The notes under the pieces were generated by a model. It was not told where the DNA came from and searched no databases. It saw only the letters and a program-made list of their open reading frames with translations. A stretch of 43,530 bases of DNA, taken from Verrucomicrobiota bacterium (lineage in GTDB: Bacteria; Verrucomicrobiota; Verrucomicrobiia; Opitutales; Opitutaceae). Shown here piece by piece: positions 6,918 through 31,144 of the stretch; the stretch's first letter is position 1, and each line of letters starts with the position of its first letter. The DNA lies in contig JANXRL010000172.1 of assembly GCA_025352985.1 (NCBI GenBank), forward strand, positions 1 through 43,530, read 5' to 3'. The translations under genes and the position numbers were made by a program.

Positions 6918-6971
6918 AGCAGAGGCTACCTTAGCGCATGCCTGCAACACCTCCTAGTGAATTTCCGGTGC

Positions 6972-6989
6972 GTTTCACAAATGTTACAA
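6972..6989 (-). promoter_or_regulatory. Possible Pho box upstream of phoB
   Basis: On the minus strand TTGTAAC-ATTT-GTGAAAC lies 55 bases before the phoB ATG. Two 7-base half-sites with a 4-base A/T spacer is the layout of a PhoB half-site pair (CTGTCAT type), and the match is partial. It would fit autoregulation, but this is weak evidence. Confidence 0.3.
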
Positions 6990-7098
6990 CCACATCTGCC
7001 TGCCTTAATCACGAATGAGCCTTTTAGGGTTAGCAGATTGTTTCCCGCGAGTAGTTTAAAAGCTAGAACTACTACACGTAGGACTTTTACACGGCACC

Positions 7099-9618: not shown

Positions 9619-9816
9619 GGATACCTTTGTAAACACCCCGTCAAAGGTGCTAGGGGCAGCCGCAGCCGAGATATCGGTGGCGGCATTACGCGTAACGGCG
9701 GAGACAGCGGGGCTGCGGATAACGTTGACTGGTGAAGAAGGGGTAGGCGTGCTCACTTCGTTTAGTCTACCTCATCCGCCTGCGACTGTGAATGCGCGCG
9801 ATGCCCAGCCACCTTT

Positions 9817-10656
9817 GTGAAAAGCCACTCGTATCCCTTGGTTAAAAATAGCCATATCATCGGGTCACGCACCCGGGAACGCCTGATTAGCGAACAGGAT
9901 TGTCCGGAACTCATTCCCCACGGCCTATCTGTGACCGGAGTATCGGACTGTGCAGCCCCTTATGAAATGGCTAGGATGCGTCCCCCTTGGGTGCATTTGC
10001 TGGTAAGCTTGGAAGGCCGTGGGCGGGTATGGGTGGACGGTCACTGGGAGGAATGCGGGCCGGGGCGGGCTTATTTGTCGCGAGCGGGTGCGCCGCATGC
10101 GTTCCGACCGGCCGGGGGCCAACGCTGGCGGATCGCTTGGGGATACTACGTCGCCGCACGCCCGTGGCAAGAACGCCTGCCCAAGCAAAGCACGATGGTC
10201 GTGGCGGACGGGCACGGCGTAGCGGCTGCAATCGATGGTCTCTACCGCGAGGTTCGCGGGAGCCGGACGGCCGACGCCCGTCGGCTTTGGGCGACCCTTG
10301 TCGATCTGTATTGGAGGCAAATTGTGGAGCAGCGTGCCGGGCGGGGGCAACTCGCCGCGCTTTGGGAGCGGGTTGACCAAGCACTGCAGCACCCCTGGTC
10401 TATCGCGACGCTCGGCCGCGAAGCAGGCTTCGCGCGCGAGCAACTCCGTCGGATTTGCCAAGTGGAAACAGGCTGCAGCCCGATGGCGCAGGTTACCCGG
10501 CTTCGCATGCGCCGAGCGCTCACCCTGCTCCAGACTACGCCGCTATCGGTCGAGGCGGTGGCGCGAGCGGTGGGTTACGAAAACGCATTTGCTTTCAGCA
10601 CTGCATTCCGACGCTTGGCCGGCCACCCGCCGCGGACTTTTTGCACGCGAAGCTGA
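9817..10656 (+). CDS. AraC-family transcriptional regulator
   Basis: This is a 279-residue regulator. The N-terminal half (about 35-120) resembles an AraC cupin sensor domain. The C-terminal half (about 183-277) is the double helix-turn-helix of the AraC family: WSIATLGREAGFAREQLRRI is the first and LSVEAVARAVGYENAFAF the second, ending with FSTAFRRLAGHPP. The start is GTG at 9817, and the next in-frame ATG (9967) would cut into the sensor domain. The gene is divergent from the GH51 gene with 198 bases between. This is the classic arrangement for a local sugar-responsive activator, so control of the arabinofuranosidase is the obvious inference. Confidence 0.88.
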   Translation: MKSHSYPLVKNSHIIGSRTRERLISEQDCPELIPHGLSVTGVSDCAAPYEMARMRPPWVHLLVSLEGRGRVWVDGHWEECGPGRAYLSRAGAPHAFRPAGGQRWRIAWGYYVAARPWQERLPKQSTMVVADGHGVAAAIDGLYREVRGSRTADARRLWATLVDLYWRQIVEQRAGRGQLAALWERVDQALQHPWSIATLGREAGFAREQLRRICQVETGCSPMAQVTRLRMRRALTLLQTTPLSVEAVARAVGYENAFAFSTAFRRLAGHPPRTFCTRS

Positions 10657-10769
10657 CCGTCCGTAAATATAATTAGGTCATAGGTAATGCCCGGCGGCTA
10701 AACGCATGGTAAGTGAACTAAGCACCTCATGGTTTCCGCCAAAACTAAAGAATAGCGTTAAAGTAAGCC

Positions 10770-12668
10770 CTATCTAAGAGACCCACTTGCTGCCCCCCTA
10801 CCCCCTTCTATTAAAACCATTAAGATGCTGATATCCGAAGGGTTAACCCCACTGATGCGGCTTGCTTGCCCCAAGGTGTAAGGCTTGATTTCTGCAAGTT
10901 TAAGTGCGCTTTCTTTGCGCAGGCCGCGCACCTGAAGAAAGTCGAGGTGCGGGGGGATTTTGATTTTTTCGATGTCGGCCAGCTTGTCGATCTGGCGTTG
11001 TTCGCGCGACAGGTAGCCATGATAGCTCACGCGGTAGATGACTTCTTGGCGAAGGGCTTCAGGTTGGGAGGCGAACGCGTCAGGGAAAACGGGCATCGCC
11101 CCCCCACCCGTGGTTGCACGGCGGATAGCGTCGCCAAACGTCCCCTGCCCGACCGGCGCCTTTTGGGATTGGAGAAACTCGATCCACTGCTCGGTTTGGC
11201 ATTTTTTTTCTTTCATGCGGGCCAGCCGGGCCGGGGAAACCAAGCCGTGGGTTTTGGCATGATGGAACAGACGTAGCTCGGCGCTGCCGTGATTGAACAA
11301 GAGCCGGTATTCGGCGCGACTGGTAAACATGCGATACGGCTCGTTGGTGCCCTTGTTTATCAGGTCGTCGATGAGCACGCCGATATAGGCTTCGTGACGG
11401 CCGATGATAAGCGATTCCTGCTGGCGAACCTTATTTACGGCGTTGACGCCCGCGATTAGTCCTTGCGAGGCGGCTTCTTCGTAGCCGGAGGTGCCATTGA
11501 TCTGGCCGGCGAAGAAGAGATTTTCCACCTTTTTGGACTCTAGGGAGGCGTAAAGCTGAGTAGGAGGTGCGAAATCGTATTCGACGGCGTAGGCTGGACG
11601 CAGCAATTGGGCGTTTTCCAGTCCGGGGATACTGTGGACCATGTCGAGCTGGACGTCGAACGGCAGAGAGGTCGAGAGACCGTTGACATAGTATTCGTTG
11701 GTCGAGCGGCCTTCGGGCTCCAAAAACAGGAGGTGCCTGGGTTTATCGGCGAAACGCACGAATTTATCTTCAATGCTGGGGCAATAGCGTGGGCCGACGC
11801 CTTCGATCTCGCCGGAATACATGGCGGATTTGTGCAAGTTGTCGCGGACAAGGCGGGCGGTTGTTTCCGTAGTATGCGTCATCCAACATGAAACCTGGCT
11901 TGTGCCCGGCTTCCAGCCGATGCGTTGCTCGCCGTTCTGTTCCACGTGGAACAGATCTTCCGGACCACGCGTGTCGTAAAAGGCGAAGAGCGTCGGGTTG
12001 GTGTCGCCGCGCTGTTCTTCCATCTTGGAGAAATCGATACTGCGGCCAAGGAGGCGGGGAGGGGTGCCTGTTTTAAGCCGGCGGAGCTCGATGCCGGCCT
12101 CTAGGAAGCTGGTAGAAAGAGTTTTGGCGCTAAAATCTCCTAGCCGTCCGCCTTCGTTCTTGTTTTGGCCGATGTGCATCAGGCCGCGTAGAAAAGTGCC
12201 GGTGGTGGCGATGACGGTCAGGCCGCTGAACTCGATGTCGAGGTTGGTGCGAACGCCAGTGACTTTTTGGCCGGTGAAGATCAAGCCCGTGACGGTGGCT
12301 TGGAAGACTTGCAGGTTGGGCTGAAGCTCAAGGGTGTGCTTGAGGCGGAACTGATAGGCTTTCTTGTCACATTGGGCGCGAGGGGACTGGACGGCGGGGC
12401 CTTTGGATTCGTTGAGCAGGCGGAATTGAATGCCGGTGACGTCGGTGTTGATGGCCATCTCCCCGCCGAGGGCGTCGATCTCGCGGACCATCTGGCCCTT
12501 GGCTTGGCCGCCGATGGCGGGGTTGCAGCTCATCTGGGCGATCGTGTCGAGGTTGCCTGTGAGGAGCAGGGTAGAGGCACCCATGCGGGCGGCGGCGAGT
12601 GCGGCTTCGCAGCCGGCGTGGCCGGCGCCGCAGACGATCACGTCGAAGGGTGATTTATTATAAACCAT
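10770..12668 (-). CDS. mnmG: tRNA uridine-5-carboxymethylaminomethyl modification enzyme, FAD subunit
   Basis: MnmG (GidA) works with MnmE to install the cmnm5 group on U34 of several tRNAs, using FAD and methylene-tetrahydrofolate. It has 632 residues, the usual size. The FAD-binding motif GAGHAG is at 14-19. The family blocks [13 protein letters not shown] and QCDKKAYQ are present, as is the conserved cysteine in RYCPSIEDK. The C-terminal helical domain that contacts MnmE is complete. It starts at ATG 12668, ten bases after the mnmE stop codon, so the two partner genes are cotranscribed. No Shine-Dalgarno site is seen. Confidence 0.97.
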
Positions 12669-16394: not shown

Positions 16395-19300
16395 GTGAAT
16401 ACTCCTCGTCCCTCTGTCCAACCCTCCCGCTCCGCCGCCACCGGCCGTCCCGCCAAGCAGGGTCTTTACGACCCGTGGTTCGAGCACGATGCCTGCGGCG
16501 TCGGTTTTGTCGCCGACCTTAAGGGACGAGCCACGCACGCCATTCTGCGCCAAGGCATCCAAGTGCTCGAAAATCTCGACCACCGCGGCGCCGCCGGTAG
16601 CGAGCCCAACACCGGTGACGGCGCCGGCAACCTCCTGCAGGTTCCCCACGCATTCTGTGTCGAGGTCGCGAAGAAAGTCCGCATCACGCTTCCCGCTGCC
16701 GGCGCTTACGGCACCGGTCTCGTCTTCCTCCCTCGCAACGCCACCCACCGGCGCAAGATTGAGGAGAAGTTCGCCCAGATTATCCAGAGCGAAGGTCAGA
16801 CGTTCCTCGGCTGGCGCACCGTTCCCACCGACAACTCCTCCCTCGGCGAAACCGCCAAGGCCAGCGAGCCGTTCATCCGCCAGATTTTCATCGGCCGCGC
16901 CGCCGACCTCGCCGCCGAGCTGGCTTTCGAGCGCAAGCTCTACGTCATCCGCAAGCGCGCCAGCACCGAGCTGCGCGACGAGGGCTTTCTCGGCGCCGAG
17001 ACATGGTATCTGCCCAGCCTCTCTTCCCGCACGCTTGTTTATAAAGGCATGCTGTTGACCACGCAGCTCGCCAACTATTTCCCCGACCTGCAAAACCCCG
17101 CCATGGCCACCGCCATCGCGCTGGTCCATTCGCGCTTCTCGACCAACACCTTCCCCAGCTGGGACCGCGCGCATCCGTATCGCTACGTCGCGCACAACGG
17201 CGAGATCAACACCCTTCGCGGCAACATCAACTGGATGCACGCCCGCCAGACCCACTTTGTCTCCGATGCCTTCGGCGACGACATCAAGAAGGTGCTCCCC
17301 GTCATCAATCCCAACGGCTCCGACTCGGCGATGTTCGACAACACGCTGGAGCTCCTCCACCTCGCCGGCCGCTCCTTGCCGCACGCGGTCATGATGATGA
17401 TCCCCGAACCCTGGTCCTACCACGCGACCATGGACGACTCGCGCCGCGCCTTCTACCAATACCACGCGTGCCTCATGGAACCGTGGGATGGTCCCGCCGC
17501 GATGACGTTTACCGACGGCCACGTCATCGGCGCCGTCCTCGATCGCAACGGCCTCCGCCCTGCCCGCTACTACGTCACCAAGGACGACCTCGTCATCCTC
17601 GCATCCGAGGCTGGCGTGCTCGACATCCCTTCTGCCGACGTCGTTCAAAAAGGCCGCCTCCAGCCCGGCCGCATGTTCCTGGTGGACACTGTGCAGGGCC
17701 GCATCGTGCCCGACGAGGAGATCAAGCGCCAGCTCGCCGCCGAATTCCCCTACCGCAACTGGCTCGACGAGCACCTCGTCCACCTCGACGACCTGCCCGC
17801 CGCGCCCGAGTTGCCCGTGCCCGACCGCGATACCCTTCAACAGCGCCAGCTCGCCTTCGGCTACACGCACGAGGACGAACGCGCCATTCTCGCGCCGATG
17901 GCTCGCGACGGCGTCGAGGGTGTCGGCTCGATGGGCAACGACACGCCCTTGGCCGTCCTCTCCAACAAGCCGCGCCTGCTCTACGATTATTTCAAGCAGC
18001 TCTTCGCGCAGGTTACCAACCCCCCCATCGACTGTATCCGCGAGGAGATCATCACCTCCTCCGAGACCCGCCTCGGTTCTGAGGGCAACCTTCTCCAGCC
18101 CGGCGCCACCGCGTGCCGCCGCGTCGAGCTCGACTGGCCCGTCCTCACCAACGAGGAGTTCGCGAAAATCCGCCGCATAGCGCTTCCCGGCCTCAAGGTT
18201 GATACCTTGCCCATCCTTTTCCGTGTCACCCGCGGCGAGGAAGGCCTCGCCAAGGCGATGGAGGACCTTTGTGCGTCCGCCCGCCGCCTCATCGAGAAGG
18301 ACGAGGTCAACGTCCTCATCCTCTCCGACCGCGGCGTCACCCGCGCCCTCGCGCCCATCCCCGCGCTCCTCGCCGTCGCCGGCCTGCACCACTATCTCAT
18401 CCGTGTAGGTCTGCGCACCCAAGTGAGCATCGTCCTCGAAACCGGCGAGGCCCGCCAGGTTCACCACTTCGCGCTGCTCATCGGTTATGGCGTCAGCGCC
18501 ATCAACCCCTACCTCGCGTTCGAGACCATCGATGAGATGATCCACGAGGGTCTCCTGCCGAACGTCGATCACAAGACCGCCTGCAAAAACCTCGTCAAGG
18601 CCACCGCCAAGGGCGTCGTGAAGGTCATGTCCAAGATGGGCATCTCCTCCATCCAGAGCTACCGCGGCGCGCAGGTGTTCGAAGCCGTCGGTCTCCGCCA
18701 GGACGTCATCGACCACTACTTCACGTGGACTCCCTCCCGTGTCGGCGGCATCGGCCTCGATGTCATCGCGCAGGAAGTTCTCATGCGCCACCGCGACGCC
18801 TACGGCGACCGCAACGTCCATGACCACGCGCTCCCCGCCGGCGGCCAGTTCAAGTGGCGCAGCGAAGGCGAATACCACCTGTTTAACCCCGAGTCCATCC
18901 ACGCCCTCCAGAAGTCCGTTCGCACCGGCGACTACGCGACGTTCAAGACCTACACGGGTCTGGTTAACGACACCTCGAAGAACCTCTGCACGTTGCGCGG
19001 CATGCTCGATTTCAAACCTTCCGACGCCATCCCTATCGAGGAAGTCGAGTCCGTCGAAAAAATCCTCGCCCGTTTCAAAACCGGCGCGATGTCCTACGGC
19101 TCCATCTCCAGCGAGGCCCACGAGACGCTCGCCATCGCGATGAACCGCATCGGCGGCAAATCCAACACCGGCGAGGGCGGCGAAGACCCCGCCCGCTTCA
19201 CCTGGACTAACGAGCTCGGCGACTCCAAAAACTCCGCCATCAAGCAGGTCGCCTCCGGCCGCTTCGGCGTCACCAGCCACTACTTGGTCAACGCCCGCGA

Positions 19301-21032
19301 AATCCAGATCAAGATGGCCCAAGGCGCCAAGCCCGGCGAAGGCGGCCAGCTCCCTGGCACCAAGGTTTATCCCTCCATTGCCAAGACCCGCCACACCACC
19401 GCCGGCGTCGGCCTCATCTCACCGCCCCCGCACCACGACATCTATTCCATCGAGGACCTCGCCGAGCTCATTCACGATCTCAAGAACGCCAACCGCCGCG
19501 CCCGTGTGAGCGTGAAGCTCGTCGCAGAGGTCGGCGTCGGCACCATCGCCGCCGGCGTTGCCAAGGCCCACGCCGACGTCGTCCTCATCTCCGGCCACGA
19601 CGGCGGCACCGGCGCTTCGCCGCAAAATTCCATCTGGCACGCCGGTCTGCCGTGGGAACTCGGCCTCGCCGAGACCCACCAGACGCTTGTCTTGAACAAC
19701 CTCCGCTCGCGCATCGCCGTCGAGACCGACGGCCAGCTCAAGACCGGCCGCGACGTCATCATGGCCGCCCTGCTCGGCGCCGAGGAGTTCGGTTTCGCCA
19801 CCGCCCCGCTTGTCGCCTCCGGCTGCATCATGATGCGTGTTTGCCACCTGAATACATGCCCCGTTGGCGTCGCCACCCAGGATCCCCGCCTGCGCGAGAA
19901 TTTCGCCGGCAAGCCCGAACACGTTGTGAACTTCATGACGTTCATCGCACAGGAGGTCCGAGAGATCATGGCGCAGCTCGGCTTCCGCACCATCGAGGAG
20001 ATGGTCGGCCGCACCGACCGCCTCGAACCGCGCAAGGCCATCACCCACTGGAAGGCCAAGGGCATGGATTTCTCCAGCTTGCTCTACTCGCCCGACGCCG
20101 GCCCCGAGGTCGGCCGTTTCTGCCAGCAAAAGCAGGATCACGGACTCGAGAAGTCCCTCGACCTCACCAAGCTCCTCGACCTGTGCGCCCCCGCCATCGA
20201 GCGCGGCGAGAAGGTTATCGCCGAGCTGCCGGTTAAAAACATCCACCGCGTCGTCGGCACCATCACCGGCAGCGAGGTCACGCGCAAATACGGCGCCGCC
20301 GGCCTGCCCGAGGATACCATCGACATCCGCTTCAATGGTTCCGCCGGCCAGTCCTTCGGCGCGTTCATGCCGAAGGGCATGACGTTCCGCCTCGAAGGCG
20401 ACGCCAACGATTACGTCGGCAAGGGTCTCTCCGGCGGCAAGATCATCGTCCGCGCCCCCGCGAATTCCGGCTTCAAACCCTCCGAAAACATCATCATCGG
20501 CAATGTCGCCCTTTACGGCGCGACCAGCGGTGAACTCTACGTCGGCGGCCGCGCCGGCGAGCGTTTCGGCGTGCGCAACTCTGGTGTGACCACCGTCGTC
20601 GAGGGTGTGGGCGACCACGGACTCGAATACATGACCGGCGGTCGCGTCGTCGTGCTCGGCCCCACCGGCCGCAACTTCGCCGCCGGCATGTCGGGCGGCG
20701 TCGCCTACGTGCTCGACGATACCGACCAGCTCAAGGGCAACGTCAATCTCTCGATGGTCGCCCTTGAAAAAATCGAGACGCCCGCCGAACTCGCCGAGCT
20801 TCGCTCCCTTGTCCAGCGTCAGGCCGATCTCACCGGCAGCGTCCGCGCCAAGGAAGTGCTGGCCGCGTGGGAAACGTTGTCCGCCAAGTTCGTCAAGGTG
20901 ATGCCCAAGGACTATAAGCGTATGCTCGCCTGCATCGAGAAGGCGCAGTCGCAAGGTCTCACCGGCGACGAGGCCATCATGGCCGCATTCGAGGAAAACG
21001 CCCGCGACACCAGCCGCGTCGGCGGAAATTAA
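16395..21032 (+). CDS. gltB: Glutamate synthase large subunit
   Basis: This subunit transfers the amide of glutamine to 2-oxoglutarate, giving two glutamates. It has 1545 residues. The class II amidotransferase domain begins at catalytic Cys34 in [10 protein letters not shown], implying removal of a 33-residue propeptide. Central and FMN-binding synthase domains follow ([20 protein letters not shown] and [12 protein letters not shown]). The 3Fe-4S cysteines are Cys1144, Cys1150 and Cys1155 in [17 protein letters not shown]. The C-terminal GXGXG beta-helix domain has FGAFMPKGM and [16 protein letters not shown]. The start is GTG at 16395. The partner gltD follows after 49 bases. Confidence 0.97.
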
Positions 21033-21043
21033 AACACTCCGGC

Positions 21044-21071
21044 CTTCATCCCTCATCCTTTAGCCTTCAAA
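21044..21071 (+). repeat. Degenerate heptamer tandem repeat in the gltB-gltD spacer
   Basis: Four consecutive 7-mers, CTTCATC, CCTCATC, CTTTAGC and CTTCAAA, fill the spacer, followed directly by the pyrimidine tract CTCTTTCCCC and the gltD ATG. The pattern resembles short heptameric tandem repeats found between genes in some bacteria. It replaces any Shine-Dalgarno sequence. Confidence 0.5.
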
Positions 21072-21081
21072 CTCTTTCCCC

Positions 21082-22560
21082 ATGGGCAAACCCACCGGCT
21101 TCCTCGAATACGTCCGCGAAATCCCCGCCGATCGTCCGCCGCTCGAACGCGTTCACGATTACAAGGAGTTCCACCTCCACCTGGAGGAGAAGCAGCTCCG
21201 CAACCAGGGTGCGCGCTGCATGGATTGCGGCGTTCCGTTCTGCCACACCGGCAAACTCATCAGCGGCATGGCCTCCGGTTGCCCGATCAACAACCTCATC
21301 CCCGAGTTCAACGACCTCGTGTTCCGCGGACGCTGGCAGGAGGCGCTTGAGCGTCTGCACAAGACGAACAACTTCCCCGAGTTCACCGGCCGCGTGTGTC
21401 CCGCGCCGTGCGAAGGTTCGTGCGTGCTCGGCATCAACAACCCGCCCGTCACCATCAAGAACATCGAGTATTCGATCATCGAAAAGGGCTGGGAAGAGGG
21501 TTGGGTCATCCCTAACGCGCCCCGCAGCCGCACCGGCAAAAAAGTCGCCGTCATCGGCTCCGGCCCGGCCGGTCTTGCCGCCGCCGCCCAGCTCAACGCC
21601 GCCGGCCACGCCGTAACCGTGTTCGAGCGCGCCGACCGTCCGGGCGGCCTCCTCATGTATGGCATCCCCAACATGAAACTGGATAAAAACGAGGTCGTCC
21701 GCCGCCGCATCCGCCTCATGGAAGAGGAGGGAATCAAGTTCGTGTGCAACGCCCACGTCGGCGTCACCCACGACGCCGCGCAGCTCCGCAAGGATTTCGA
21801 TTCTATCGTCGTCTGCACCGGTGCCACGCTCCCGCGCGACCTCCCCATCGAGGGCCGCGCCCACGCCGGCGTTCACTTCGCGATGGAGTTCCTCACCGCC
21901 AACACCAAGGCCGTGCTCGCCGGCACCGAGGCTAACATTTCCGCCAAGGACAAGGATGTCATCGTCATCGGCGGTGGCGACACCGGCACCGACTGCGTGG
22001 GCACCTCGCTCCGTCACGGCTGTAAGAGCGTCACCCAGATCGAGATTCTCCCGAAGCCTCCGACCGAGCGCACCGCCGATAATCCCTGGCCGGAGTGGCC
22101 CAAGACTTACAAGATGGACTACGGTCAGGAAGAAGCCGCCGCCCGTTACGGCGCTGATCCGCGCGTTTATTTGACCACCGTCAAAAAATTCAACGCCGAC
22201 GCCTCCGGCCGCGTCGAGTCGCTCGTCACCGTCGAGATCAAGTGGGGCAAGAACGACAAGGGGCAGTTCGTCCCGCAGGAGCAGCCCGGCACCGAAAAGA
22301 CCCGCCCCGCGCAACTCGTGTTGCTCGCGATGGGTTTCCTCGGGCCGGAGCAGCCGCTCATCAAGGCGCTCACCCTCGACACCGATCCGCGCAGCAACAT
22401 CAAGGCCGACCATAACGTCCACACCACGAACCTCCCCGGAGTGTTCGCCGCCGGCGACTGCCGCCGTGGTCAGAGCTTGGTGGTGTGGGCGATCAACGAA
22501 GGCCGCGCCGCCGCAAGAGAGTGCGACCGCTACCTGATGGGCGCGACCACGCTGCCTTGA
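21082..22560 (+). CDS. gltD: Glutamate synthase small subunit
   Basis: This NADPH-oxidising FAD subunit passes electrons to GltB. It has 492 residues. The N-terminal double 4Fe-4S domain has cysteines at 46, 49 and 54 ([10 protein letters not shown]), another in SGCPIN, and 106, 110 and 114 (CPAPCEGSC). The FAD dinucleotide fold [19 protein letters not shown] is near residues 153-171. The NADPH fold [20 protein letters not shown] is near 293-312. The C-terminal flavin-closing motif [18 protein letters not shown] is intact. The start is unambiguous and forms an operon with gltB. Downstream the sequence enters the repeat-rich island. Confidence 0.97.
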
Positions 22561-22604
22561 TGGAGTGGCTGGTTACGGGGTTTATTTTAAAAGTCTAGGA
22601 CTTG

Positions 22605-22714
22605 CCGGACCGGTTGCGGGATTGAAAAAGACGCGCAACGTGCGCGGAGATGTCCACGGGCGCACAATTGCAGCTGGTCTGGTTCAAGCGCGATCTGCGG
22701 GTAGCGGCCCATGC
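22605..22714 (+). pseudogene. Photolyase 5' end, copy 1 (22 codons plus upstream DNA)
   Basis: These 110 bases align without gaps to 28741-28850 (5 mismatches by eye), which is the upstream region and first 22 codons of a photolyase gene. Here the ATG at 22650 gives MSTGAQLQLVWFKRDLRV and then diverges after AAHA into FTRF and a TAG at 22728-22730, so only a 26-residue peptide is encoded. The photolyase N-terminal beta strand LVWFKRDLRV is unmistakable. This copy lies 45 bases after the gltD stop. Confidence 0.85.
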
Positions 22715-22856
22715 TTTTACGCGTTTTTAGGACTCCGGATCATATCAATCACACAATCTGATGATGCAGTTGTCTTCATCACAAGTTGCTGAATTTTGGC
22801 TTGTTAACGTGGTGCTGTGGGGCAGAACTCATTGAGTGGATTTTTTTAAAAAACCT
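22685..22856 (+). repeat. Direct repeat copy 1: photolyase codons plus module leader
   Basis: This 172-base segment recurs at 27640-27811 with no gaps and about 10 mismatches (counted by eye, about 94% identical). It starts inside the photolyase coding sequence and runs through a roughly 140-base A/T-richer leader into the first seven codons of the CHASE2 gene. The leader presumably holds the promoter for the following operon, but no convincing -35/-10 pair could be chosen. Confidence 0.93.
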
Positions 22857-24122
22857 CACAAAGCACTCTGGGGGTTTGTGTTAATCGTTGTAGTTTCCAC
22901 CGTGGAATGGGGCATGCATGAAACGCGAATCGCCCAGCAACTCCGTTCCCAGACCTATGTTCTGCTCAATGGGGTCGTCCGGAGAATTTCGACGCATTTC
23001 GATGTGGATACCCCTCCGGTGGCCGTCATCGATGTTTCCAATTTAAAAACCGAGTCGGATGCCACCACGGCCGAGCCATACACGCCGCCTCTCGCGTTGG
23101 TCCGTATCATCGAATCAATCACCACCAAGCACACTCCTAAATCGATTGCGGTGGATATTGATTTATCGCCGGTTTTTTTAGCAGACGGTCAACATGTGCC
23201 GTCCGGGTTTCTGGAACTGATGCTCTTGGCGGACAAATTGGAGAAAAAAGGCACGCCGGTTTTTTTTGGGGTAGACCGCTCGGTCGGCTATGGACCGCAG
23301 CATTGGCTTAGAGATGAACAATGGGCGCGGCATGCGGCTTGGTTACGTATTCCGCTTAGCCGACAGTTCATGATCCCGGTCGAGCTGGAGTCTCGCGATT
23401 GGAATACTGGCGCGGATAAGGTGCGCTTGCCCAGCTTGGCGGCGGCAGCGGCGGGGTGGAGCGAGGAAGCGCATGGTCCGGAAACGCGACCTGCCTCCGG
23501 ATTTGTCAATTGGACTCGCGGCAGGATGACGGAGTTGGAGGACGAGGAATTGATCGAGGGAAAGCTTACCGTCCAGCTGGCGCTGTCGGATTTGGGATGG
23601 GTCGAAAGACTCAAGTCGGCGATTATCGTATGTGACGAAAAAGGGGTTATCCCCGACGTGCTTTTGACGCAGGAGAGCGTGCAGCAAAAAATGGTTTTCA
23701 TCGGCAAAGTGGCGAAATCGTTGGACCAGTTTCAACCCTCTGGGTTTGAGCGCACGGTGCCGGGCGTTTTGCTTCATGCCGCAGGGGCCATCACGCTGGC
23801 CCAAGTATCTCCCTTGCGTGTGCTCAGTCATATGGCTGGAGCGGTGGCGGGCTTTTTGGGCATGGTTGTCATATTGGGCGTGCATACCCTCCTCAACCGG
23901 CGACAAAAGGAGGAATCGGCTAAGACCGTCGCGCACGATATCAGGGCGGGTTTCGTCTATAATGGGGTATGGGCTGCAATCCTCGTGGTCGTGGGCGTTC
24001 TCTTGGTGCTGTTCGCGCATGTCCTGTGGATGGAGCTGTTATTCGTTCTGGTCTTTCTGGTGCTGCACATGCTCCTCGAATGTCTGCTGATGGTGCAGCT
24101 CGTTCTTTCAAAACCTCATTAA
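22836..24122 (+). CDS. CHASE2-domain membrane protein without cytoplasmic output domain
   Basis: This 428-residue membrane protein has one N-terminal transmembrane helix (about 11-26), then a large extracytoplasmic CHASE2-type sensor region (about 35-325) with the patterns VAVIDVS, KSIAVDIDLSP, KMVFIG and the terminal PSGFERTVPGVLLHAAGAIT. Three or so C-terminal helices follow (about 332-353, 375-395, 398-424). CHASE2 is usually fused to kinase, cyclase or other signalling domains, and none is present here. The GTG start at 22836 lies inside the direct repeat and is needed to include the first helix, since the next ATG (residue 27) would remove it. It is the first gene of a three-gene operon ending in a caspase, one base before the next start. 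Ligand unknown. Confidence 0.8.
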   Translation: MDFFKKPHKALWGFVLIVVVSTVEWGMHETRIAQQLRSQTYVLLNGVVRRISTHFDVDTPPVAVIDVSNLKTESDATTAEPYTPPLALVRIIESITTKHTPKSIAVDIDLSPVFLADGQHVPSGFLELMLLADKLEKKGTPVFFGVDRSVGYGPQHWLRDEQWARHAAWLRIPLSRQFMIPVELESRDWNTGADKVRLPSLAAAAAGWSEEAHGPETRPASGFVNWTRGRMTELEDEELIEGKLTVQLALSDLGWVERLKSAIIVCDEKGVIPDVLLTQESVQQKMVFIGKVAKSLDQFQPSGFERTVPGVLLHAAGAITLAQVSPLRVLSHMAGAVAGFLGMVVILGVHTLLNRRQKEESAKTVAHDIRAGFVYNGVWAAILVVVGVLLVLFAHVLWMELLFVLVFLVLHMLLECLLMVQLVLSKPH

Positions 24123-24123
24123 A

Positions 24124-25074
24124 ATGAATAACGTCTGGGCTTCTATGACTAACCGATTTTGGCTTTTTGTCTGGTGCATCGTGGCTACCGCCGCGCCCCA
24201 CGTTGCTCGCGGCCAGTCTCCGGTGAGCTCCTCGTTCGAGCCTTATGCTATCGTCATGGAGATGAAATCCGCCAGCGGGGAAAAGACGGAGGCTAAGTTG
24301 TTCTACCGGGTTGGCGGCGACTGGGTGGAAATCTGCAAGGCCGACTTGCCATTTGCCTTGCCCGCGATGGCGGAAATCAGGAAGGCGAAGGAGGTGTCAG
24401 TCTCGATTTCGCTTCCCAAGGGACGTTACGACAAGGAACACACGCAATGGGACGGAACGAGTCCGGTGGTCGTCGCGAAGTTAAACGAAGAACTTCCTTT
24501 GCTAAAAAATCCCGGCCATGAGGCGCTGGCTCATTATTTGGTAGGAGGGGTCACTCGTGCAGGAGAAGGGGAGTTGGACTATCCGGTGGAGTTTAGCGCC
24601 GCACGGGCGGACGCTTTCGTGGTCATCCTGAAGAGCGACTGGCCAAAGGGGTCGGCTATGGTGGCGGTTTCTGACAGTGAGGGGAACGAAATCGCTAATG
24701 AGGCCCTGGCGAGAGCTGCAAATGAACGCGTGCTGGTTTCTCCCGTGTTGCGAAAAGCGCTGGCCGGTAAGCAGGGGCAATCGTTGAGCGTGCGGGTGCA
24801 GACGGGCGTCAAAAGCGCTTCGTGCGAGTTCATGGTCTTGTCTCCTGTCTTGGCGCAACGACTGACCGGGGCGCTCAAGGAAGCCGATGCCGAGACTGAT
24901 GTAGTGCTCCGCCATTTGATGCGGGCCCATGCCTATGAGGACGCCTCACTGTTGTTGGAGTCTATGGCAGAACTTAAGGCTGCGCACATAGCTGGGGGGA
25001 AAATGTATCCGCGATTGGGAGCTGTCGTCCAAGCCTTCGCCGCCCAACACGGACTTTCTGGAACACTTCCTTGA
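24124..25074 (+). CDS. Exported protein of unknown function between CHASE2 and caspase genes
   Basis: This 316-residue protein has a signal peptide (about 1-30, ending AAPHVARG before QSP), so it is probably periplasmic. No domain was recognised. An N-terminal beta-rich half (FEPYAIVMEMKSASGEK and on) is followed by a middle part with VVILKSDWPKGSAMVAVSDS. A helical C-terminal section (about 245-315) with LRHLMRAHAYEDASLLLESM could be TPR-like. The ATG at 24124 is one base after the CHASE2 stop codon, and the protein ends four bases before the caspase start, so the three are almost certainly translated together. It may be an adaptor between sensor and protease, but this is inference from position only. 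Confidence 0.75.
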   Translation: MNNVWASMTNRFWLFVWCIVATAAPHVARGQSPVSSSFEPYAIVMEMKSASGEKTEAKLFYRVGGDWVEICKADLPFALPAMAEIRKAKEVSVSISLPKGRYDKEHTQWDGTSPVVVAKLNEELPLLKNPGHEALAHYLVGGVTRAGEGELDYPVEFSAARADAFVVILKSDWPKGSAMVAVSDSEGNEIANEALARAANERVLVSPVLRKALAGKQGQSLSVRVQTGVKSASCEFMVLSPVLAQRLTGALKEADAETDVVLRHLMRAHAYEDASLLLESMAELKAAHIAGGKMYPRLGAVVQAFAAQHGLSGTLP

Positions 25075-25078
25075 TGCC

Positions 25079-27244
25079 ATGCCATCTATCGTAACCATCA
25101 TGCTTCGCCGCACGACTCTTTACCTTTTGATCGTCATGGCGGGTTTGTCCGCGTCCTGCTCAAAATCAGCCAACTCCACGTCGGAGTCTAAGCCGGTCGT
25201 GTCAGCGCCCGCAGTCCGGAGCGATCAGGCATCCGTGCCGCCGCCGCCGGCTGTGGCCGCCCCGCCCGCCGCTATTGTTCAGCCGACGGCACCGTTAAAA
25301 CCGGCCATTCCTGTGGAGGCTAGCGGACCCTATCACGATGTGCTTGCGCTGGTGGTCGGAAACAACGCGTATGCGGGCATGCCCAATCTGGCCGGAGCCG
25401 AGGGAGATGCCGAGGCTGTGGCGGCGGTCTTGCGGAAGAAATTTGGCTTCAAGGTAAAGAGCCTGATCGGTCCGGCGGCCACTGCGACAGCGATCCGTGG
25501 AGCGCTGGCAGAGATGCGTGGCCAAGTGTCCGCCAGCACGGATGTGATCTTCTATTTTGCAGGCCATGGCCTGCAAAAAAAGCTGCCGTTGGCCAACGGA
25601 GAAAAGGTCGCACGTAAGACGGGATTCGCCGTGCCCTATAGTCCTGATCCGGTCTCGACGAAGAGTGATCTGGAGGTGCTGCAACGCGATGCGCTTGAAA
25701 TGCAAGCCGTGGTAAATGATCTGGCCGGCTGGCCCGCGCGGCATCGGGTGGTGATCCTTGATTGTTGTTACAGCGGGTTCGCGAACAAAGCCGGAGTTGT
25801 GGCGTCGCTCGACGATTTTGATGCGCACAAGGTTGACCAACCGACTGTGCAGGTGATCACGGCCGGACTGGAAGGGCAATTGTCGGTCGAGAATTCGAGC
25901 GAGCACCGCGGGGTGTTTACGATGGCCTTGGTCAAGGTCCTTGAAGAGGACGATCTCCAGACTCTCCTGCTGGCTTTCATGAAGGTGAGCCAGAAAGTGA
26001 TCAGTTCCCCCGAGTATCTGGCCGACCGCCGATCGGGTTATCCCCAGCACCGGTTGATGTCGGGCGAGGGTGGCGAGTTCGTGCTGTTGCCCTTGGAGCG
26101 CCAGCCACAATGGAACGTCTATCTGAAAGCCAGTGACGAGCGGAAACTCTACTCGAGTTCGCAACAATCAAGCTACGGTGCGTCGGCTACCAGCGGGGAA
26201 TACAAAGCGGTGATCACACGCGGAGGCGAGGATGCGGAGCCGGTCGTGCTGACTCCCGAGGATGTCAAACGTCACGAGGCGCGCGCGTCACTGGGCGATC
26301 CGATCTCGATGGCGATCCTCACCGAATACTACGGAACCCAGAAGGACGAGGCAGCTAAACAAAAAGCGCACAGTTATGCGGTCGGGGGCTACGACACGGG
26401 TAACCCCTACGGCACGTTCGCGCTTGGACGAGCCTATGAAAAAGGCTATGGAGTGGAGGCGAATCCCGAATTGGGCACCGAGTTGCAAAAGATGTCTGGT
26501 TTGAAGGACATCTTGGAAATCGTGATGAAATACCGGCAACTGCAGACCGATCTGCAGCAGGCAAAGAAGGGTGATATCTCCAGTATGGTGAAGGTGGCGC
26601 AGGGTGGCGGGGCAATCTTGGGTCGATTGCGTAGCATGACTGGACGCTTATTCACCGGTGATGACGACCACATTGTCTCAGCGGGTCCAAAATCCATCGA
26701 CGAAGCCCTAGAGGCTGGTGATGTGCAGCGGGTGACTGTCAAACTCGGTGATTGGGCAAAAAGGCTGAGCAAGGTCACACCACAAACGCCGCGGCAAAAA
26801 GAATTGTTTGACCATTTGAATCAAGAGCTAGCCGAGCTGCAAACTCCGGTGACTCCTCTAAGCAAGCAAATGAAGGCATACGAAGAGGGCATGGTGCGGG
26901 TGCGTCCGCTTGCGGTTTCCCTCGCCAGTTCGATTAAAGCGGGAAGCACGATCACCAAGGACCGGGCGGATGTGAGCGAGGCGGTGCTCAAGGGTAACGT
27001 GAAGACTGTGGTGAAGAAGCTGACCAGTTGGCAGGGAGCATTGAAAAAACTTAAACCGACAACCGAAGAGCAGAAAAAATTGGTCGCCAAGCTTGATGAT
27101 GAAATCACCACGCTGCTGGTTCCGGTGACGCCAGTGAGCAAGCAATTGGAGGCTTATGAGACGGGGATCGAAAAACTCTGGGCGGTTTCCGACGCAGTGA
27201 TCGATGAGATGGCGGTTTCCGCAGAGGCGGCAGCTGACAAATGA
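25079..27244 (+). CDS. Predicted lipoprotein caspase (peptidase C14) with Sel1-like and duplicated C-terminal units
   Basis: This 721-residue protein begins with a lipoprotein-type signal ending LSASC (Cys27), then a Pro/Ala-rich linker to about 80. The caspase domain (about 85-340) has catalytic His163 in FYFAGHGLQ and Cys230 in VILDCCYSG. The early block LVVGNNAYAGMPNLAGAEGD is typical of bacterial metacaspase-like proteins. Residues about 410-470 contain Sel1-like sequence (LGDPISMAILTEYYG, FALGRAYEKGYGVEANPELG). Two homologous units of about 80 residues follow (539-620 and 631-713), both ending with PVTPxSKQ. An internal ATG at 25100 (residue 8) is an equally good start for the signal. 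A caspase anchored outside the cytoplasm is unusual. Its substrate is unknown. Confidence 0.85.
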   Translation: MPSIVTIMLRRTTLYLLIVMAGLSASCSKSANSTSESKPVVSAPAVRSDQASVPPPPAVAAPPAAIVQPTAPLKPAIPVEASGPYHDVLALVVGNNAYAGMPNLAGAEGDAEAVAAVLRKKFGFKVKSLIGPAATATAIRGALAEMRGQVSASTDVIFYFAGHGLQKKLPLANGEKVARKTGFAVPYSPDPVSTKSDLEVLQRDALEMQAVVNDLAGWPARHRVVILDCCYSGFANKAGVVASLDDFDAHKVDQPTVQVITAGLEGQLSVENSSEHRGVFTMALVKVLEEDDLQTLLLAFMKVSQKVISSPEYLADRRSGYPQHRLMSGEGGEFVLLPLERQPQWNVYLKASDERKLYSSSQQSSYGASATSGEYKAVITRGGEDAEPVVLTPEDVKRHEARASLGDPISMAILTEYYGTQKDEAAKQKAHSYAVGGYDTGNPYGTFALGRAYEKGYGVEANPELGTELQKMSGLKDILEIVMKYRQLQTDLQQAKKGDISSMVKVAQGGGAILGRLRSMTGRLFTGDDDHIVSAGPKSIDEALEAGDVQRVTVKLGDWAKRLSKVTPQTPRQKELFDHLNQELAELQTPVTPLSKQMKAYEEGMVRVRPLAVSLASSIKAGSTITKDRADVSEAVLKGNVKTVVKKLTSWQGALKKLKPTTEEQKKLVAKLDDEITTLLVPVTPVSKQLEAYETGIEKLWAVSDAVIDEMAVSAEAAADK

Positions 27245-27249
27245 GGATT

Positions 27250-27286
27250 CCAAAAGGGGTCGGGTTTTACCCTTTACCTTTTTTAG
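27250..27286 (+). repeat. Left inverted end of the RAYT remnant
   Basis: The sequence CCAAAAGGGGTCGGGTTTTA continues CCCTTTACCTTTTTTAG. It matches the reverse complement of 27599-27636 at nearly every position with two small gaps. Confidence 0.85.
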
Positions 27287-27535
27287 TCGCTTGGCCCACG
27301 CCGCCGTTTCGGGATGGTGTCCGCGGGACGCGAGGCCTGTGTGCTTGCTCACATAGACGCTCGTTCCCATGCCAAGCTGCTCCGCCAGCTAGCCGCTCTT
27401 GGCGCAGGCCTCGAGCAGGCATTCCTCGAAAGCCTTCCTGGCGCCATCGCTGGCAAACACCCACTCGCGGTAATTGCCGCGGTTGATGACGTGATAAATC
27501 GCGCCCGGATATTCCAGCCTTACTTTGCGTGCCAT
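27287..27535 (-). pseudogene. RAYT transposase, internally deleted
   Basis: From ATG 27535 the minus strand reads MARKVRLEYPGAIYHVINRG, then NYREWVFASDGARKAFEECL and LEACAKSG, ending in TAG (27391-27389). This is the diagnostic N-terminus of RAYT/IS200-like Y1 transposases. The same frame resumes after the TAG with LAEQLGMGTSVYVSK, matching the usual C-terminus. The middle, including the HUH motif and catalytic tyrosine (roughly 150 residues in relatives), is missing. It is a dead internal-deletion derivative. Confidence 0.82.
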
Positions 27536-27598
27536 GGGTGGTAGTTTGGATTTCAGGGCGGGCTTTGGCCGCTGCCTTGCGACTATCCCAATTAGCTT

Positions 27599-27636
27599 CT
27601 AAAAAGGTAAGGGGTAAAACCTGACCCCTTTTTAGG
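27599..27636 (-). repeat. Right inverted end of the RAYT remnant
   Basis: Read on the minus strand it starts CCTAAAAAGGGGTCAGGTTT, pairing with 27250-27286. Three bases later the photolyase-derived repeat copy 2 begins, so the element sits exactly at the edge of that repeat. Confidence 0.85.
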
Positions 27637-27639
27637 ACA

Positions 27640-27811
27640 CAAGCGCGATCTGCGGGTGGCGGACTATGCTTTTACGCGTTTTTAGGGCTCCGGATCATAT
27701 CAATCACACAATCTGATGATGCAGTTGTCTTCATTACAAGTTGCTGAATTTTAGCTTGTTAACGTGGTGCTGTGGGGCAAAACTCATTGAGGAAATTTTT
27801 TTAAAAAACCT
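27640..27811 (+). repeat. Direct repeat copy 2: photolyase codons plus module leader
   Basis: This is the second copy of 22685-22856, same length, about 94% identical. It begins in photolyase codon 12-13 (CAAGCGCGATCTGCGGGTGG). Its photolyase part differs from copy 3 (28821-28850) by only one base. The GTG that starts the CHASE2 gene in copy 1 is GGA here. The frame then reads on to a TGA that overlaps the ATG of the next gene. Confidence 0.93.
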
Positions 27812-27822
27812 GAAGTCGCATC

Positions 27823-28632
27823 ATGAATGAATTCTACAAAAAAATTATGAGCTTGGGAGTGGTGGCAGGCCTCTGGATTTCATCGTCACAAAGCTCGAAT
27901 GCCGCCGAACTACTATCCCTGACAGATCAACAGGGGCGTGTGATTCAAGCAACGGTTACCGCATTTGACGGCACACACGTCAGCCTTTCCCGCGAGGATG
28001 GAAAGGCGTTCACTATCGGCATAGATAAGTTGATCGAGTCGGATCAGCAACGGGTGAAGGATTTGTTCGCCGCCACTTCCTCGGCAAAAACAGGGTCGCC
28101 CGCCCCTTTACCCGCCGGCAACCCAACTGAAACCAAGGCAGACTCATTCGATCAGAAACTCGAACGGGTCAAAACGGTTGTCGCCAGCGTTTCCGATCCG
28201 GATGAGTTGTATTTCGCGAATTTCAAGGTGCCGGGAGCAACCCTGAAAAATGTAGATTGCACGGAGTTTACCGACTCTGGAGCGACTCTTTCATTACAGA
28301 AGATGAGGGCTTTTGCCCGCGATAAAGGCCGTAAGCTATTGGAGGCGGCGGTGGCGACCAACTCATTGGTAATAGTGCCGCAAGCCACTCCGGATACATC
28401 AGCCTACCTTTATTTTCGTAATGCGCAGGGAAAGACCGAAGGCTTAAAGTTAAGTGGCGGAAAATGGAGTCCGGACGTCGGCATCCGCGTAGGAAATTAT
28501 GCTAATAATTGGCCCAAAGGGGGGTATGTCAGTATGTCGGGTGATGGTAACGAGATTGGGCTTCTGACCGAGGCAACTAAAAACAAGAAACCGGCGTGGA
28601 TAATGAGATTGCATACCGTAAACTTCGACTGA
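27823..28632 (+). CDS. Exported protein with an N-terminal SHD1-like domain
   Basis: This 269-residue protein has a signal peptide (about 1-28, cut near SSNAA). Residues about 30-84 resemble an SHD1 (SLA1 homology 1) domain, a small beta module common in secreted Planctomycetes/Verrucomicrobia proteins: LLSLTDQQGRVIQATVTAFD, then VSLSREDGKAF and LIESDQQRV. A Thr/Pro/Ala linker (85-105) leads to an unrecognised C-terminal domain (about 110-269). Codons are visibly more A/T-rich than in the housekeeping genes around the island. The ATG at 27823 overlaps the stop of the ghost frame that continues from repeat copy 2. It is the only gene of module 2. Function unknown. Confidence 0.72.
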   Translation: MNEFYKKIMSLGVVAGLWISSSQSSNAAELLSLTDQQGRVIQATVTAFDGTHVSLSREDGKAFTIGIDKLIESDQQRVKDLFAATSSAKTGSPAPLPAGNPTETKADSFDQKLERVKTVVASVSDPDELYFANFKVPGATLKNVDCTEFTDSGATLSLQKMRAFARDKGRKLLEAAVATNSLVIVPQATPDTSAYLYFRNAQGKTEGLKLSGGKWSPDVGIRVGNYANNWPKGGYVSMSGDGNEIGLLTEATKNKKPAWIMRLHTVNFD

Positions 28633-28740
28633 ACTCAGGTGACGGCTAAAGAGAGTCTGGTGATGAGCGTCAATCGGTAGGGGATAAATGCGGGTGATGC
28701 GGTTTTTTATCCGGTCACAATTTTGTAGGAACGGATTCCT

Positions 28741-28850
28741 CCGGACCGGTTGCGGGATGGAAAAAGACGCGCAACGTGCGCGGAGATGTCCACGGGCACA
28801 CAGTTGCAGCTGGTCTGGTTCAAGCGCGATCTGCGGGTGGCGGACCATGC
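28741..28850 (+). repeat. Photolyase 5' region, copy 3 (likely the parent copy)
   Basis: These 110 bases match 22605-22714, and their last 30 match the start of copy 2. Only this copy continues as photolyase coding sequence beyond the shared segment, so it is most likely the parent. Confidence 0.88.
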
Positions 28851-28980
28851 GCCGCTCGCGGCGGCGGTGGCGGCGGCGCGAGTGGAAAAACGCGGCGCGG
28901 TGATCGGGCTTTATGTCGTCGAGCCGGAGGTGATCGGGGCAGAGGATTTTGCCGCGCGTCATTGGGATGCGACCGTCGAT
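28786..28980 (+). pseudogene. Photolyase, N-terminal 65 codons only
   Basis: From ATG 28786 the frame gives MSTGTQLQLVWFKRDLRVAD, then HAPLAAAVAAARVEKRGAVI and GLYVVEPEVIGAEDFAARHW. This is the N-terminal alpha/beta (antenna-chromophore) domain of a deoxyribodipyrimidine photolyase or cryptochrome-like protein, normally about 450-500 residues. Homology stops near codon 65, where the sequence changes into the 3' flank of the opposite-strand epimerase gene. The FAD domain is absent from the window. The gene cannot make a working photolyase. Confidence 0.85.
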
Positions 28981-29004
28981 CAAAAGGGGTCTGGGCGAGT
29001 TTTT

Positions 29005-29940
29005 TCAATTTGTATGGAGGGAGGCGGCGTAGTGGCGGAGGCCGTCTTCGAGGGTGACGGCAGGGGAGTAGCCGAGGTCGGCGCGGGCGAGGGTGAGGTC
29101 GGCCCAGGTGCGTTCGACGTCGCCGGGTTGGGCGGGGAGATGGCGGACGAGGGCGCGTTTACCGAGGACGCGTTCGATGGTCTCGACGAGGGTTGCGAGG
29201 GTGACGGGGTGGTCGCCGCCGAGGTTGTAGATGCGGAAGCCGGGCTGGAGGCGGTCGAGGGCGGCGAGGATGCCGGCGGCGGTGTCGGTGACGTAGGTGT
29301 AATCGCGGCTGGTGGAGCCGTCGCCGTAGAGTTCGACGGGGCGGCCGGCGGCGATGGCGTCCACAAACTTGGAGATGGCGAGGTCGGGGCGCTGGCGGGG
29401 GCCGTAAACGGTGAAGAAGCGGAGGGCGGTGAGGGAGAGGCCGTGGAGGTGGGCGTAGATGCGGCAGAGGTTTTCGGCGGCGAGCTTGGTGACGGCGTAG
29501 GGCGAGGCGATGGAGGTGAGGGCGTCGGTCTCGGCGAAGGGGGTTTTGGGGTTGTTGCCGTAAACGGAGCTGGAGGAGGCGAAGACGATGCGGGTGATGC
29601 CGAGCGCGGCGGCTTCGTCGAGGAGGTTGAGGGTGCCGTTGACGTTGGTCTCGACGTAGAGGCGGGGGTTCTGAAGGGAGGCGCGGATGCCGGCGCGGGC
29701 GGCCAGGTGGAGGATGGCGTCGGGGCGGAAGGCTTGAAGGGCGGCGCGGACGGCGGGGCGGTCGCGGAGGTCGGCGTCGAAGGTGAGGGCGCCGGTGGTG
29801 GCGGCCTGGCGGCGTTTGACGGAGGGGTCGTAGAAGTCGTTGAAGTCGTCAAGGAGCGCGGTGGTGTCGCCGCGTGCGCGGAGGGCGTCGAGGGTGTGCG
29901 AGCCGATGAAGCCGGCGCCGCCGGTGACGAGAACTTTCAT
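29005..29940 (-). CDS. NAD-dependent UDP-sugar epimerase (UDP-glucuronate 4-epimerase-like)
   Basis: This is a 311-residue extended short-chain dehydrogenase. The NAD-binding loop GGAGFIG is at 7-13. The catalytic residues are a serine in ASSSSVYG (121-128) and the Tyr148-Lys152 pair in SPYAVTKLAAE. The segment HLAARAGIRASLQNP followed by YVETNVNGTLNLL, and RFFTVYGPRQRPDLAISKF, point to the UDP-glucuronate 4-epimerase subgroup rather than GalE. It would supply UDP-galacturonate or a similar sugar for the neighbouring glycosyltransferases. The ATG at 29940 is preferred over an in-frame TTG at 29949. Its end abuts the truncated photolyase. Confidence 0.88.
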   Translation of the reverse strand: MKVLVTGGAGFIGSHTLDALRARGDTTALLDDFNDFYDPSVKRRQAATTGALTFDADLRDRPAVRAALQAFRPDAILHLAARAGIRASLQNPRLYVETNVNGTLNLLDEAAALGITRIVFASSSSVYGNNPKTPFAETDALTSIASPYAVTKLAAENLCRIYAHLHGLSLTALRFFTVYGPRQRPDLAISKFVDAIAAGRPVELYGDGSTSRDYTYVTDTAAGILAALDRLQPGFRIYNLGGDHPVTLATLVETIERVLGKRALVRHLPAQPGDVERTWADLTLARADLGYSPAVTLEDGLRHYAASLHTN

Positions 29941-30010
29941 GGGCGGCAAGGCAGGGGAAGGGACCGGCTCGCGTCAAACCCTGTGTGCCGTGATCAACCG
30001 CACCGCAGTG

Positions 30011-31144
30011 CTACTTGCGGAGTTTTTCGAAGAGGTCGAGGTAGGCGCGGGCTTGGCGGGCGGGCTCGAAAGCTTGGCGGGCGAAGAGGACGGCGGCGCT
30101 GCCGGCGCGGGCGCGGAGGGTGGGGTCTTCCAAATACGGGAGGAGGGCGGCGCGGTGGGCGGGGATGTCGCCGGCGGGGACGACTTCGCCGGTGACGCCG
30201 GGCTGGAGGCATTCGCTCACGCCGCGGGCGTCGGCGGCGACGACGGGGAGTCCGTGGGCTTGGGCTTCGATGAGGAAGTTGGAGAGCGACTCGGCCTTGG
30301 AGGCGAGGACGGCGAGGTCGGCGGCGCGGTAGAGGGGGCCAGGGTCGCGTTGGAAGCCGAGGAAGCGGAGGCGGTCGCCGACGCCGAGGCGGGCGGCGAG
30401 TTCGGTGCAGGCTGCGCGGGTGACGCCTTCGCCGGCAAACCAGAGCTGCCAGTCGAGGGTTTTGGGGAGCGTGGCGGCGAGCTCGACGAGGGCGCGCTGG
30501 TTTTTCTCGGGGCGGAACATGCCGACGCAGAGGAGGACGACGGTGGCGGCCCTGGCGCCATGTTCGGTGCGGAGAGCGTGGTTGCGGGTGCTGTTGGCTT
30601 GCGGGGGGAAGACGAGGGCGTTGTGGATCACGGAGACGCGGTCGGGGCGGACGCCGTGGTGGCGTTGGAGGACTTCTGAGGCTTCGGCGCTGTTGGCGAC
30701 GATGTGGTCGAGGTGAGGGAGCGAACGGCGGATGAGCCAGGGGAGGGGCTTGCCGCCGCGCATGGTGCCACTGACGAGAGCGCGCGGGAGTTTTTTGCGG
30801 AGGTGGCCGGCGCAGCAGTTGGCCATGGCGCCCATGCAGAGGATGATGTCGGGATCGGCGGCGCGGAGGGTGCGGACGAGGCCGGGGGCGAACCAATCGA
30901 GGCCGGTGTCGAAGGGTTGGAGGGTCTGTAGGGGAAGGGGCGGAAGCTGAGAGCTGAGAGCTGAGAGGCCAGCGTTGGAAGCGGAGTTGGTGCCGGGGCA
31001 GGGGCTGGGGTGGAGGGCGCCGCCGGGGCGGAAGAGGACGACGGCGGTATCGTGGCCGGCGGCATGAAAGGCATTCGCGAGGAGGAGCGTCTGGCGCTCG
31101 GTGCCGCCGCTGCGGAGGTGGTCTTGGACGACGCGGATTTTCAT
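30011..31144 (-). CDS. GT4-type glycosyltransferase
   Basis: This is a 377-residue GT-B fold glycosyltransferase. The N-terminus MKIRVVQDHLRSGGTERQTL is the typical acceptor-domain glycine-rich start. The donor half has VLLCVGMFRPEKNQRALVEL, WFAGEGVTRAACTELAARLG, FLGFQRDPGPLYRAADLAVL and the E-x7-E-like SKAESLSNFLIEAQAHGLPV. A low-complexity Ser/Pro/Leu stretch near residues 50-75 is encoded by a heptamer tandem repeat and looks like an insertion. The ATG at 31144 overlaps the stop of the upstream glycosyltransferase (ATGA). A longer upstream frame exists but is only the shadow of that gene. Sugar specificity cannot be told. Confidence 0.87.
   Translation of the reverse strand: MKIRVVQDHLRSGGTERQTLLLANAFHAAGHDTAVVLFRPGGALHPSPCPGTNSASNAGLSALSSQLPPLPLQTLQPFDTGLDWFAPGLVRTLRAADPDIILCMGAMANCCAGHLRKKLPRALVSGTMRGGKPLPWLIRRSLPHLDHIVANSAEASEVLQRHHGVRPDRVSVIHNALVFPPQANSTRNHALRTEHGARAATVVLLCVGMFRPEKNQRALVELAATLPKTLDWQLWFAGEGVTRAACTELAARLGVGDRLRFLGFQRDPGPLYRAADLAVLASKAESLSNFLIEAQAHGLPVVAADARGVSECLQPGVTGEVVPAGDIPAHRAALLPYLEDPTLRARAGSAAVLFARQAFEPARQARAYLDLFEKLRK
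30946..30966 (-). repeat. In-frame triple heptamer repeat inside a glycosyltransferase gene
   Basis: Three perfect copies of GCTGAGA (CTCTCAG class on the coding strand) total 21 bases, so the reading frame is kept and encodes LSALSSQ. It lies in a poorly conserved part of the protein and looks like an inserted short tandem repeat. Confidence 0.7.

Follow-up and report, generated by a model that had tools for sequence, protein, structure and literature searches.

A probably duplicated and decaying gene neighborhood at the gltD-photolyase junction of a Verrucomicrobiota bacterium

Integron cassettes and islands in protein-coding genes are arrangements in which several modules lie behind a common junction and are flanked by direct repeats on both sides. 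Tandem duplication with partial gene loss is another known process that leaves direct repeats. REP-associated tyrosine transposases (RAYTs) and the REP/REPIN sequences form a further described system (PMC2817692, PMC3116915, PMC3686654). The locus presented in this study shares features with each of them, and we consider it probable that it is a locally duplicated, decaying neighborhood at an unstable junction between gltD and a photolyase gene, shaped by duplication, deletion, and the decay of a transposon.

The window, i.e., the whole stretch of DNA that was analyzed (43,530 nucleotides), is an entire contig (C16) of a draft genome that comprises 2,881,183 bases in 199 contigs and is 92% complete. 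The gene order is gltB, gltD, a photolyase 5' segment (P1), a so-called leader (L1), a CHASE2-like gene, a second gene, a caspase gene, a transposase relic, a second photolyase segment (P2) with its own leader (L2), gene B, a third photolyase segment (P3), and an antisense epimerase gene. Both gltB (positions 16395 to 21032) and gltD (21082 to 22560, plus strand) are intact; the latter, which encodes the small subunit of glutamate synthase and is the left neighbor of the interval, matches NCBIfam TIGR01317 with an E value of 4.8e-237 and is 95% identical in amino acid sequence to its counterpart in G005, a genome of the same genus. An earlier reading, made from the sequence only, had placed photolyase 5' segments at three sites, and all three are present. 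P1 (22605 to 22714, plus strand) is a relic with an upstream part on the scale of 46 nt and 22 codons from the ATG at 22650; its translation is MSTGAQLQLVWFKRDLRVAAHAFTRF followed by a stop, as the photolyase frame reaches a stop codon inside the leader. It is identical to P3 (28741 to 28850) at 105 of 110 bases, with 5 differences, and P2, a leftover of 30 nt (27640 to 27669, plus strand), is identical to P3 at 29 of 30 bases. A query of 261 bases matches three places in the genome and no more, and the E values of the lesser copies in the DNA search (6.3e-72 and 3.9e-45) mean that these matches are not due to chance. A conserved hairpin (CGCGCAACGTGCGCG) lies directly before the photolyase ATG in the P repeat (22632 to 22646 and 28768 to 28782); it is terminator-like on the minus strand and is also present in G005.

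Because the copies differ by 3 to 6%, they are not one stretch that was assembled several times. The fragmented and incomplete state of the draft, and the position of the right-hand break at a REP-like sequence, which belongs to a class of repeats, would suit a contig that wrongly joins repeated pieces; in both modules, however, the reading frames are undisrupted, which argues against such an assembly artifact, and we regard it as improbable.

P1 and P2 leave the photolyase sequence at the identical base (ATGC followed by TTTTACGCG), as had been recognized before, and the likeness extends through the leaders: P1 with L1 (22685 to 22856) and P2 with L2 (27640 to 27811) are identical at 162 of 172 positions, with 10 differences. 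L1 (22715 to 22856) and L2 (27670 to 27811), both on the plus strand and forming repeat D4, had been taken for a leader in front of different genes. The repeat is real, but L1 consists of a spacer of 121 nt and of 21 nt from the start of the CHASE2 frame, and the 172-base repeat thus ends, at 22856, 21 bases into that reading frame. The GTG at 22836 stands immediately after an in-frame TGA and, judging from the frame, is probably the true CHASE2 start, since later starts would cut the predicted hydrophobic N-terminus. In L2, three adjacent bases differ at this GTG, and the CHASE2 start codon is therefore lost. The junction that P1-L1 and P2-L2 have in common to the base, together with the 21-nt overlap with CHASE2, argues for one junction that was later copied rather than for two insertions. 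In the simplest reading, a single photolyase/leader/CHASE2 junction would have arisen once and been copied afterwards. Of the two origins that had been offered for the locus, repeated insertion is thus disfavored, and tandem duplication followed by gene replacement fits better.

Among the 252 genomes of the family, the leader has a match in one, which is its own, and its 20- to 21-mers have no exact match in the genome or viral contigs. With P1 and L1 joined as the query, a match is obtained in 2 of 56 genomes, i.e., its own and G005, the latter in the photolyase part only (91%). A widespread mobile repeat is therefore rejected within the family and was unseen in the exact contig scans. A structured RNA was also rejected, as there is no Rfam match in 21000 to 30500 and both leaders fold slightly worse than shuffled sequences (z = 1.10 and 0.90). 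The same applies to an obvious promoter: a sigma-70 scan gave 2 sites, compared with 3.1 expected, and neither of them lies within a leader, which leaves a promoter role unsupported. Through L2, gene B may make use of the upstream region of the CHASE2 operon, and any present function would be modest.

These results bear on an explanation in which a recombinase encoded at another locus captured cassettes site-specifically at codons 21 to 22 of the photolyase gene, with the leader and the P segment as the attachment region. The identical left junction, which occurs twice and in front of two different modules, is what such capture would give. On the other hand, the leader has no match in any other of the 252 family genomes, the leader repeat enters the CHASE2 frame, and no recombinase gene is seen in the interval; site-specific capture is accordingly regarded as improbable.

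The genes behind the two leaders are different, as had been noted: L1 leads to a CHASE2-like protein, a protein without a Pfam match, and a caspase, and L2 leads to one protein without a Pfam match. The first gene of module A (22836 to 24122) encodes a CHASE2-like membrane protein of 428 aa, whose Pfam CHASE2 match (E = 2.4e-5, 24.5 bits) is below the cutoff of 26.3; the second (24124 to 25074) encodes the 316-aa protein without a Pfam match; and the third (25079 to 27244) encodes a caspase-domain protein (Peptidase_C14) of 721 aa, with a Pfam E value of 1.2e-24, a PADLOC caspase E value of 3.3e-14, and a score below the cutoff of the NCBIfam caspase model (80.6 of 140 bits). Module B consists of gene B (27823 to 28632), which encodes 269 aa and has no Pfam match at E 0.1. 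All four genes are on the plus strand, and all four reading frames are open. PADLOC also gave a weak ZorA match (E = 0.006); a defense role for the modules is not inferred from the caspase and ZorA profile matches. The caspase protein is found at E 1e-15 or better in two of the 252 family genomes, i.e., its own and G225, and in the 15 kb around the G225 caspase there is no tblastn match to CHASE2, the second protein, or gene B. The N-terminal part of the gene B product is weakly similar to sequences in 26 of the 252 genomes, its own included, and the best E value in another genome is 4.1e-11. A virus-borne module A was rejected, as four stretches of the viral contigs matched a pattern and none was confirmed; for relatives of module A in the genome contigs there were 58 pattern matches, and for gene B in the viral contigs there were 9 candidate stretches, again with none confirmed, and all of these scans reach close relatives only. 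A plasmid-borne module A was rejected because neither the interval nor the caspase has a match in the plasmid collection.

The G+C content of module A (0.565), module B (0.507), and L1 (0.421) is lower than that of gltBD (0.646) and the right flank (0.655), and a foreign origin of the interval is therefore plausible from its composition. Among the genes at 22836 to 28632, the Pfam, PADLOC, and NCBIfam profiles gave no match to a recombinase and recognized no plasmid, replication, or transfer gene. The description of the locus as a cassette-like island finds no positive support in these results or in the distribution of the leader. The composition and the rarity of the caspase would also suit a Campbell-type integration, in which homologous recombination with the photolyase gene brought in a nonreplicating circle that carried the photolyase 5' segment, the leader, and the modules, possibly in dimeric form or in two separate events. 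Such an event directly gives photolyase segments alternating with modules and ending in photolyase, and this matches the observed order P1-L1-A-P2-L2-B-P3-photolyase. It is opposed by the missing plasmid, replication, and transfer genes, by the plasmid search, and by the fact that modules A and B have the P-L stretch alone in common; integration of a circle is considered unlikely but is kept as a serious alternative.

P3 (28741 to 28983, plus strand) is a truncated photolyase 5' segment of approximately 65 codons from the ATG at 28786. It matches PF00875 with an E value of 8.4e-9 and covers positions 2 to 47 of the 164 in this profile, and the complete antenna and FAD-binding domains are absent. 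The sequence-only reading had this copy continuing as photolyase, which holds as far as approximately 28982 and fails beyond it, where a REP-like AAAAGGGGTC end and the antisense epimerase follow. The ten bases that begin at 28982 (AAAAGGGGTC) recur in the REP-like ends at 27252 and 27632. The right neighbor, an NAD-dependent epimerase gene on the minus strand (29005 to 29949; Pfam Epimerase, E = 1.3e-60), belongs to a block that adjoins other genes in G006, G009, and G010 and has no match in G005 at E 1e-60; the segment from 28982 to 29004 is therefore a synteny break. In G006, G009, and G010, the block beside these other genes is an epimerase-glycosyltransferase block.

Homologues of P3 are found in G060 (54% identity over 61 aa), in a frame of 594 aa with both PF00875 and PF03441, and in G153 (57% identity over 65 aa). 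The photolyases of the genus are distant from the P3 fragment (32 to 42% over 36 to 54 aa in 11 loci). A PF00875 match is present in all 13 genomes of the genus, and in the genome studied here the P3 fragment is the sole one. Ten of the other 12 have PF00875 frames of at least 491 aa, and the matches in G004 and G007 are at contig ends or split. As the genome is 92% complete, an intact photolyase gene may have been left out of the draft. The in-frame P3 fragment has no match in the plasmid collection, and among solved structures it has 11 weak matches (E = 0.0012 to 0.084) to photolyases and cryptochromes.

Between positions 186 and 22592 of the window, G005 is collinear with it, except for a gap at approximately 6905 to 10796, i.e., some 3.9 kb of the window that are absent from the otherwise collinear contig. 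Downstream of gltD, G005 carries an oppositely oriented Acyl_transf_3 gene and then the photolyase 5' end, inside which the contig stops. The comparison with relatives that had been proposed, namely, a search for an empty site, thus yields a gltD-photolyase pair without the leader or the modules, but with the acyltransferase gene in between and a photolyase cut off by the contig end. Because of this intervening gene, G005 does not fix the ancestral order of gltD and photolyase. At E 1e-100, gltD is found in nine other genomes of the genus, of which eight were fetched and G008, with gltD at a contig end, was left out; a photolyase fragment is beside gltD in G005 only, and in two of the other seven loci the downstream sequence is short (343 bases in G009 and 3,253 bases in G012). 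In G004 and G001 (loci L024 and L026), a second gltB-like frame directly follows gltD, and the gltB of the window matches this frame at 66 to 72% DNA identity.

P3 (28749 to 28908) is 97.5% identical to G005. Over 97 aligned bases, there are 4 differences between P3 and G005, 5 between P1 and P3, and 9 between P1 and G005, and at the positions where P1, P2, and P3 differ, P3 agrees with G005, which places the changes on the side of P1 and P2. P3 is thus the continuation of the native gene, whereas P1 and P2 are relics. From 28768 to 28908, P3 is identical to G005 (contig C50) over 141 bases, whereas the flanks of the two species are 83 to 92% identical, and 22 of 18,217 windows of 134 nt in the aligned collinear flank are free of mismatches. 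Recent exchange of the gene, a conserved recombination site, or strong constraint may lie behind this stretch. It fits a conserved site of cassette capture, but recent exchange equally well, and no other observation speaks better for a bolder reading, in which modules are captured repeatedly at the photolyase 5' end: a recombinase encoded at another locus would insert them after codon 22 and restore the start of the photolyase after every module, leaving a small array under one leader. If true, this would be a novel mechanism by which gene modules are stacked at a protein-coding locus, and we give it very little credence.

Directly to the left of P2, between REP-like inverted ends (27252 to 27632, minus strand), is an internally deleted relic of a Y1 transposase of the IS200-like, RAYT-like type. 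The earlier statement that no recombinase is visible is therefore correct for integrase genes in the interval but overlooks this relic. Its inverted arms are 32 nt long and 94% complementary. The relic consists of two minus-strand pieces with a stop between them, which match the start (34/47) and the late part (18/42) of a 372-aa protein of G127, and the element has thus lost its middle. The Y1_Tnp match of the G127 homologue has an E value of 9.6e-11; the first piece of the relic alone gives a Y1 domain E value of 0.064, which is below the cutoff. Presumably the element is a RAYT rather than a member of another IS200-like group. The sequence from 27252 to 27632 is matched in 95 of the 252 family genomes, and solo REP-like copies occur in G005, one of them in contig C29.

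The caspase stop and the REP end are separated by seven bases, GGATTCC, which recur immediately ahead of P3 (28733 to 28739). Across the window, this motif has 7 occurrences on the plus strand and one on the minus strand, and in G005 a GGATTC lies upstream of the photolyase. As the motif is common to the P2 and P3 sides, P2 may once have had its full left part and been cut when the element inserted or decayed, a suggestion to which so short a match lends little weight. Modules A and B would then be bounded by photolyase segments on both sides, and the cassette and circle models predict the same.

Under the duplication reading, a photolyase gene would have stood downstream of gltD, and its 5' end would have been duplicated. 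One copy would have lost its body after codon 22 through fusion to the sequence upstream of the CHASE2-caspase genes, which would have created the one P/L junction. A copy of this junction, together with the first 21 nt of CHASE2, would then have come to lie before gene B, the simplest route being a tandem duplication from which the intervening genes were later lost. Beside the second copy, a Y1/REP element would have inserted and decayed, and a break at the REP-like end that now borders the epimerase block would have truncated the remaining photolyase. The common junction, the CHASE2 overlap, the agreement of P3 with G005 where the copies differ, the relic, the restriction of the leader to its own genome among 252, and the G005 pair without modules support this reading, and the GGATTCC motif is suggestive of it; against it, a full second copy of the module is absent, and the tandem duplication is not directly seen. 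On balance, the anatomy of the region is likely to be accounted for by known processes, i.e., duplication with deletion and transposon decay. So read, repeats and REP/transposase debris have reshaped one intergenic region, gene B has ended up behind the upstream sequence of another operon, and the matter is of little wider consequence.

Compared with integron cassettes and islands in coding genes, the locus is alike in its several modules behind a common junction and its direct repeats on both sides, but no integrase gene is seen in the interval, and the leader, unfound elsewhere, extends into the coding sequence of one of the module genes. The likeness to the RAYTs and REP/REPIN debris lies in the Y1 domain of the intact relatives, the REP-like palindromic ends, and the solo ends elsewhere, whereas the copy in the window is internally deleted and cannot be active. 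With tandem duplication and partial gene loss, the locus has in common the direct repeats with a common junction, the truncated copies, and the different genes between them; it differs in that the complete second copy is gone here.
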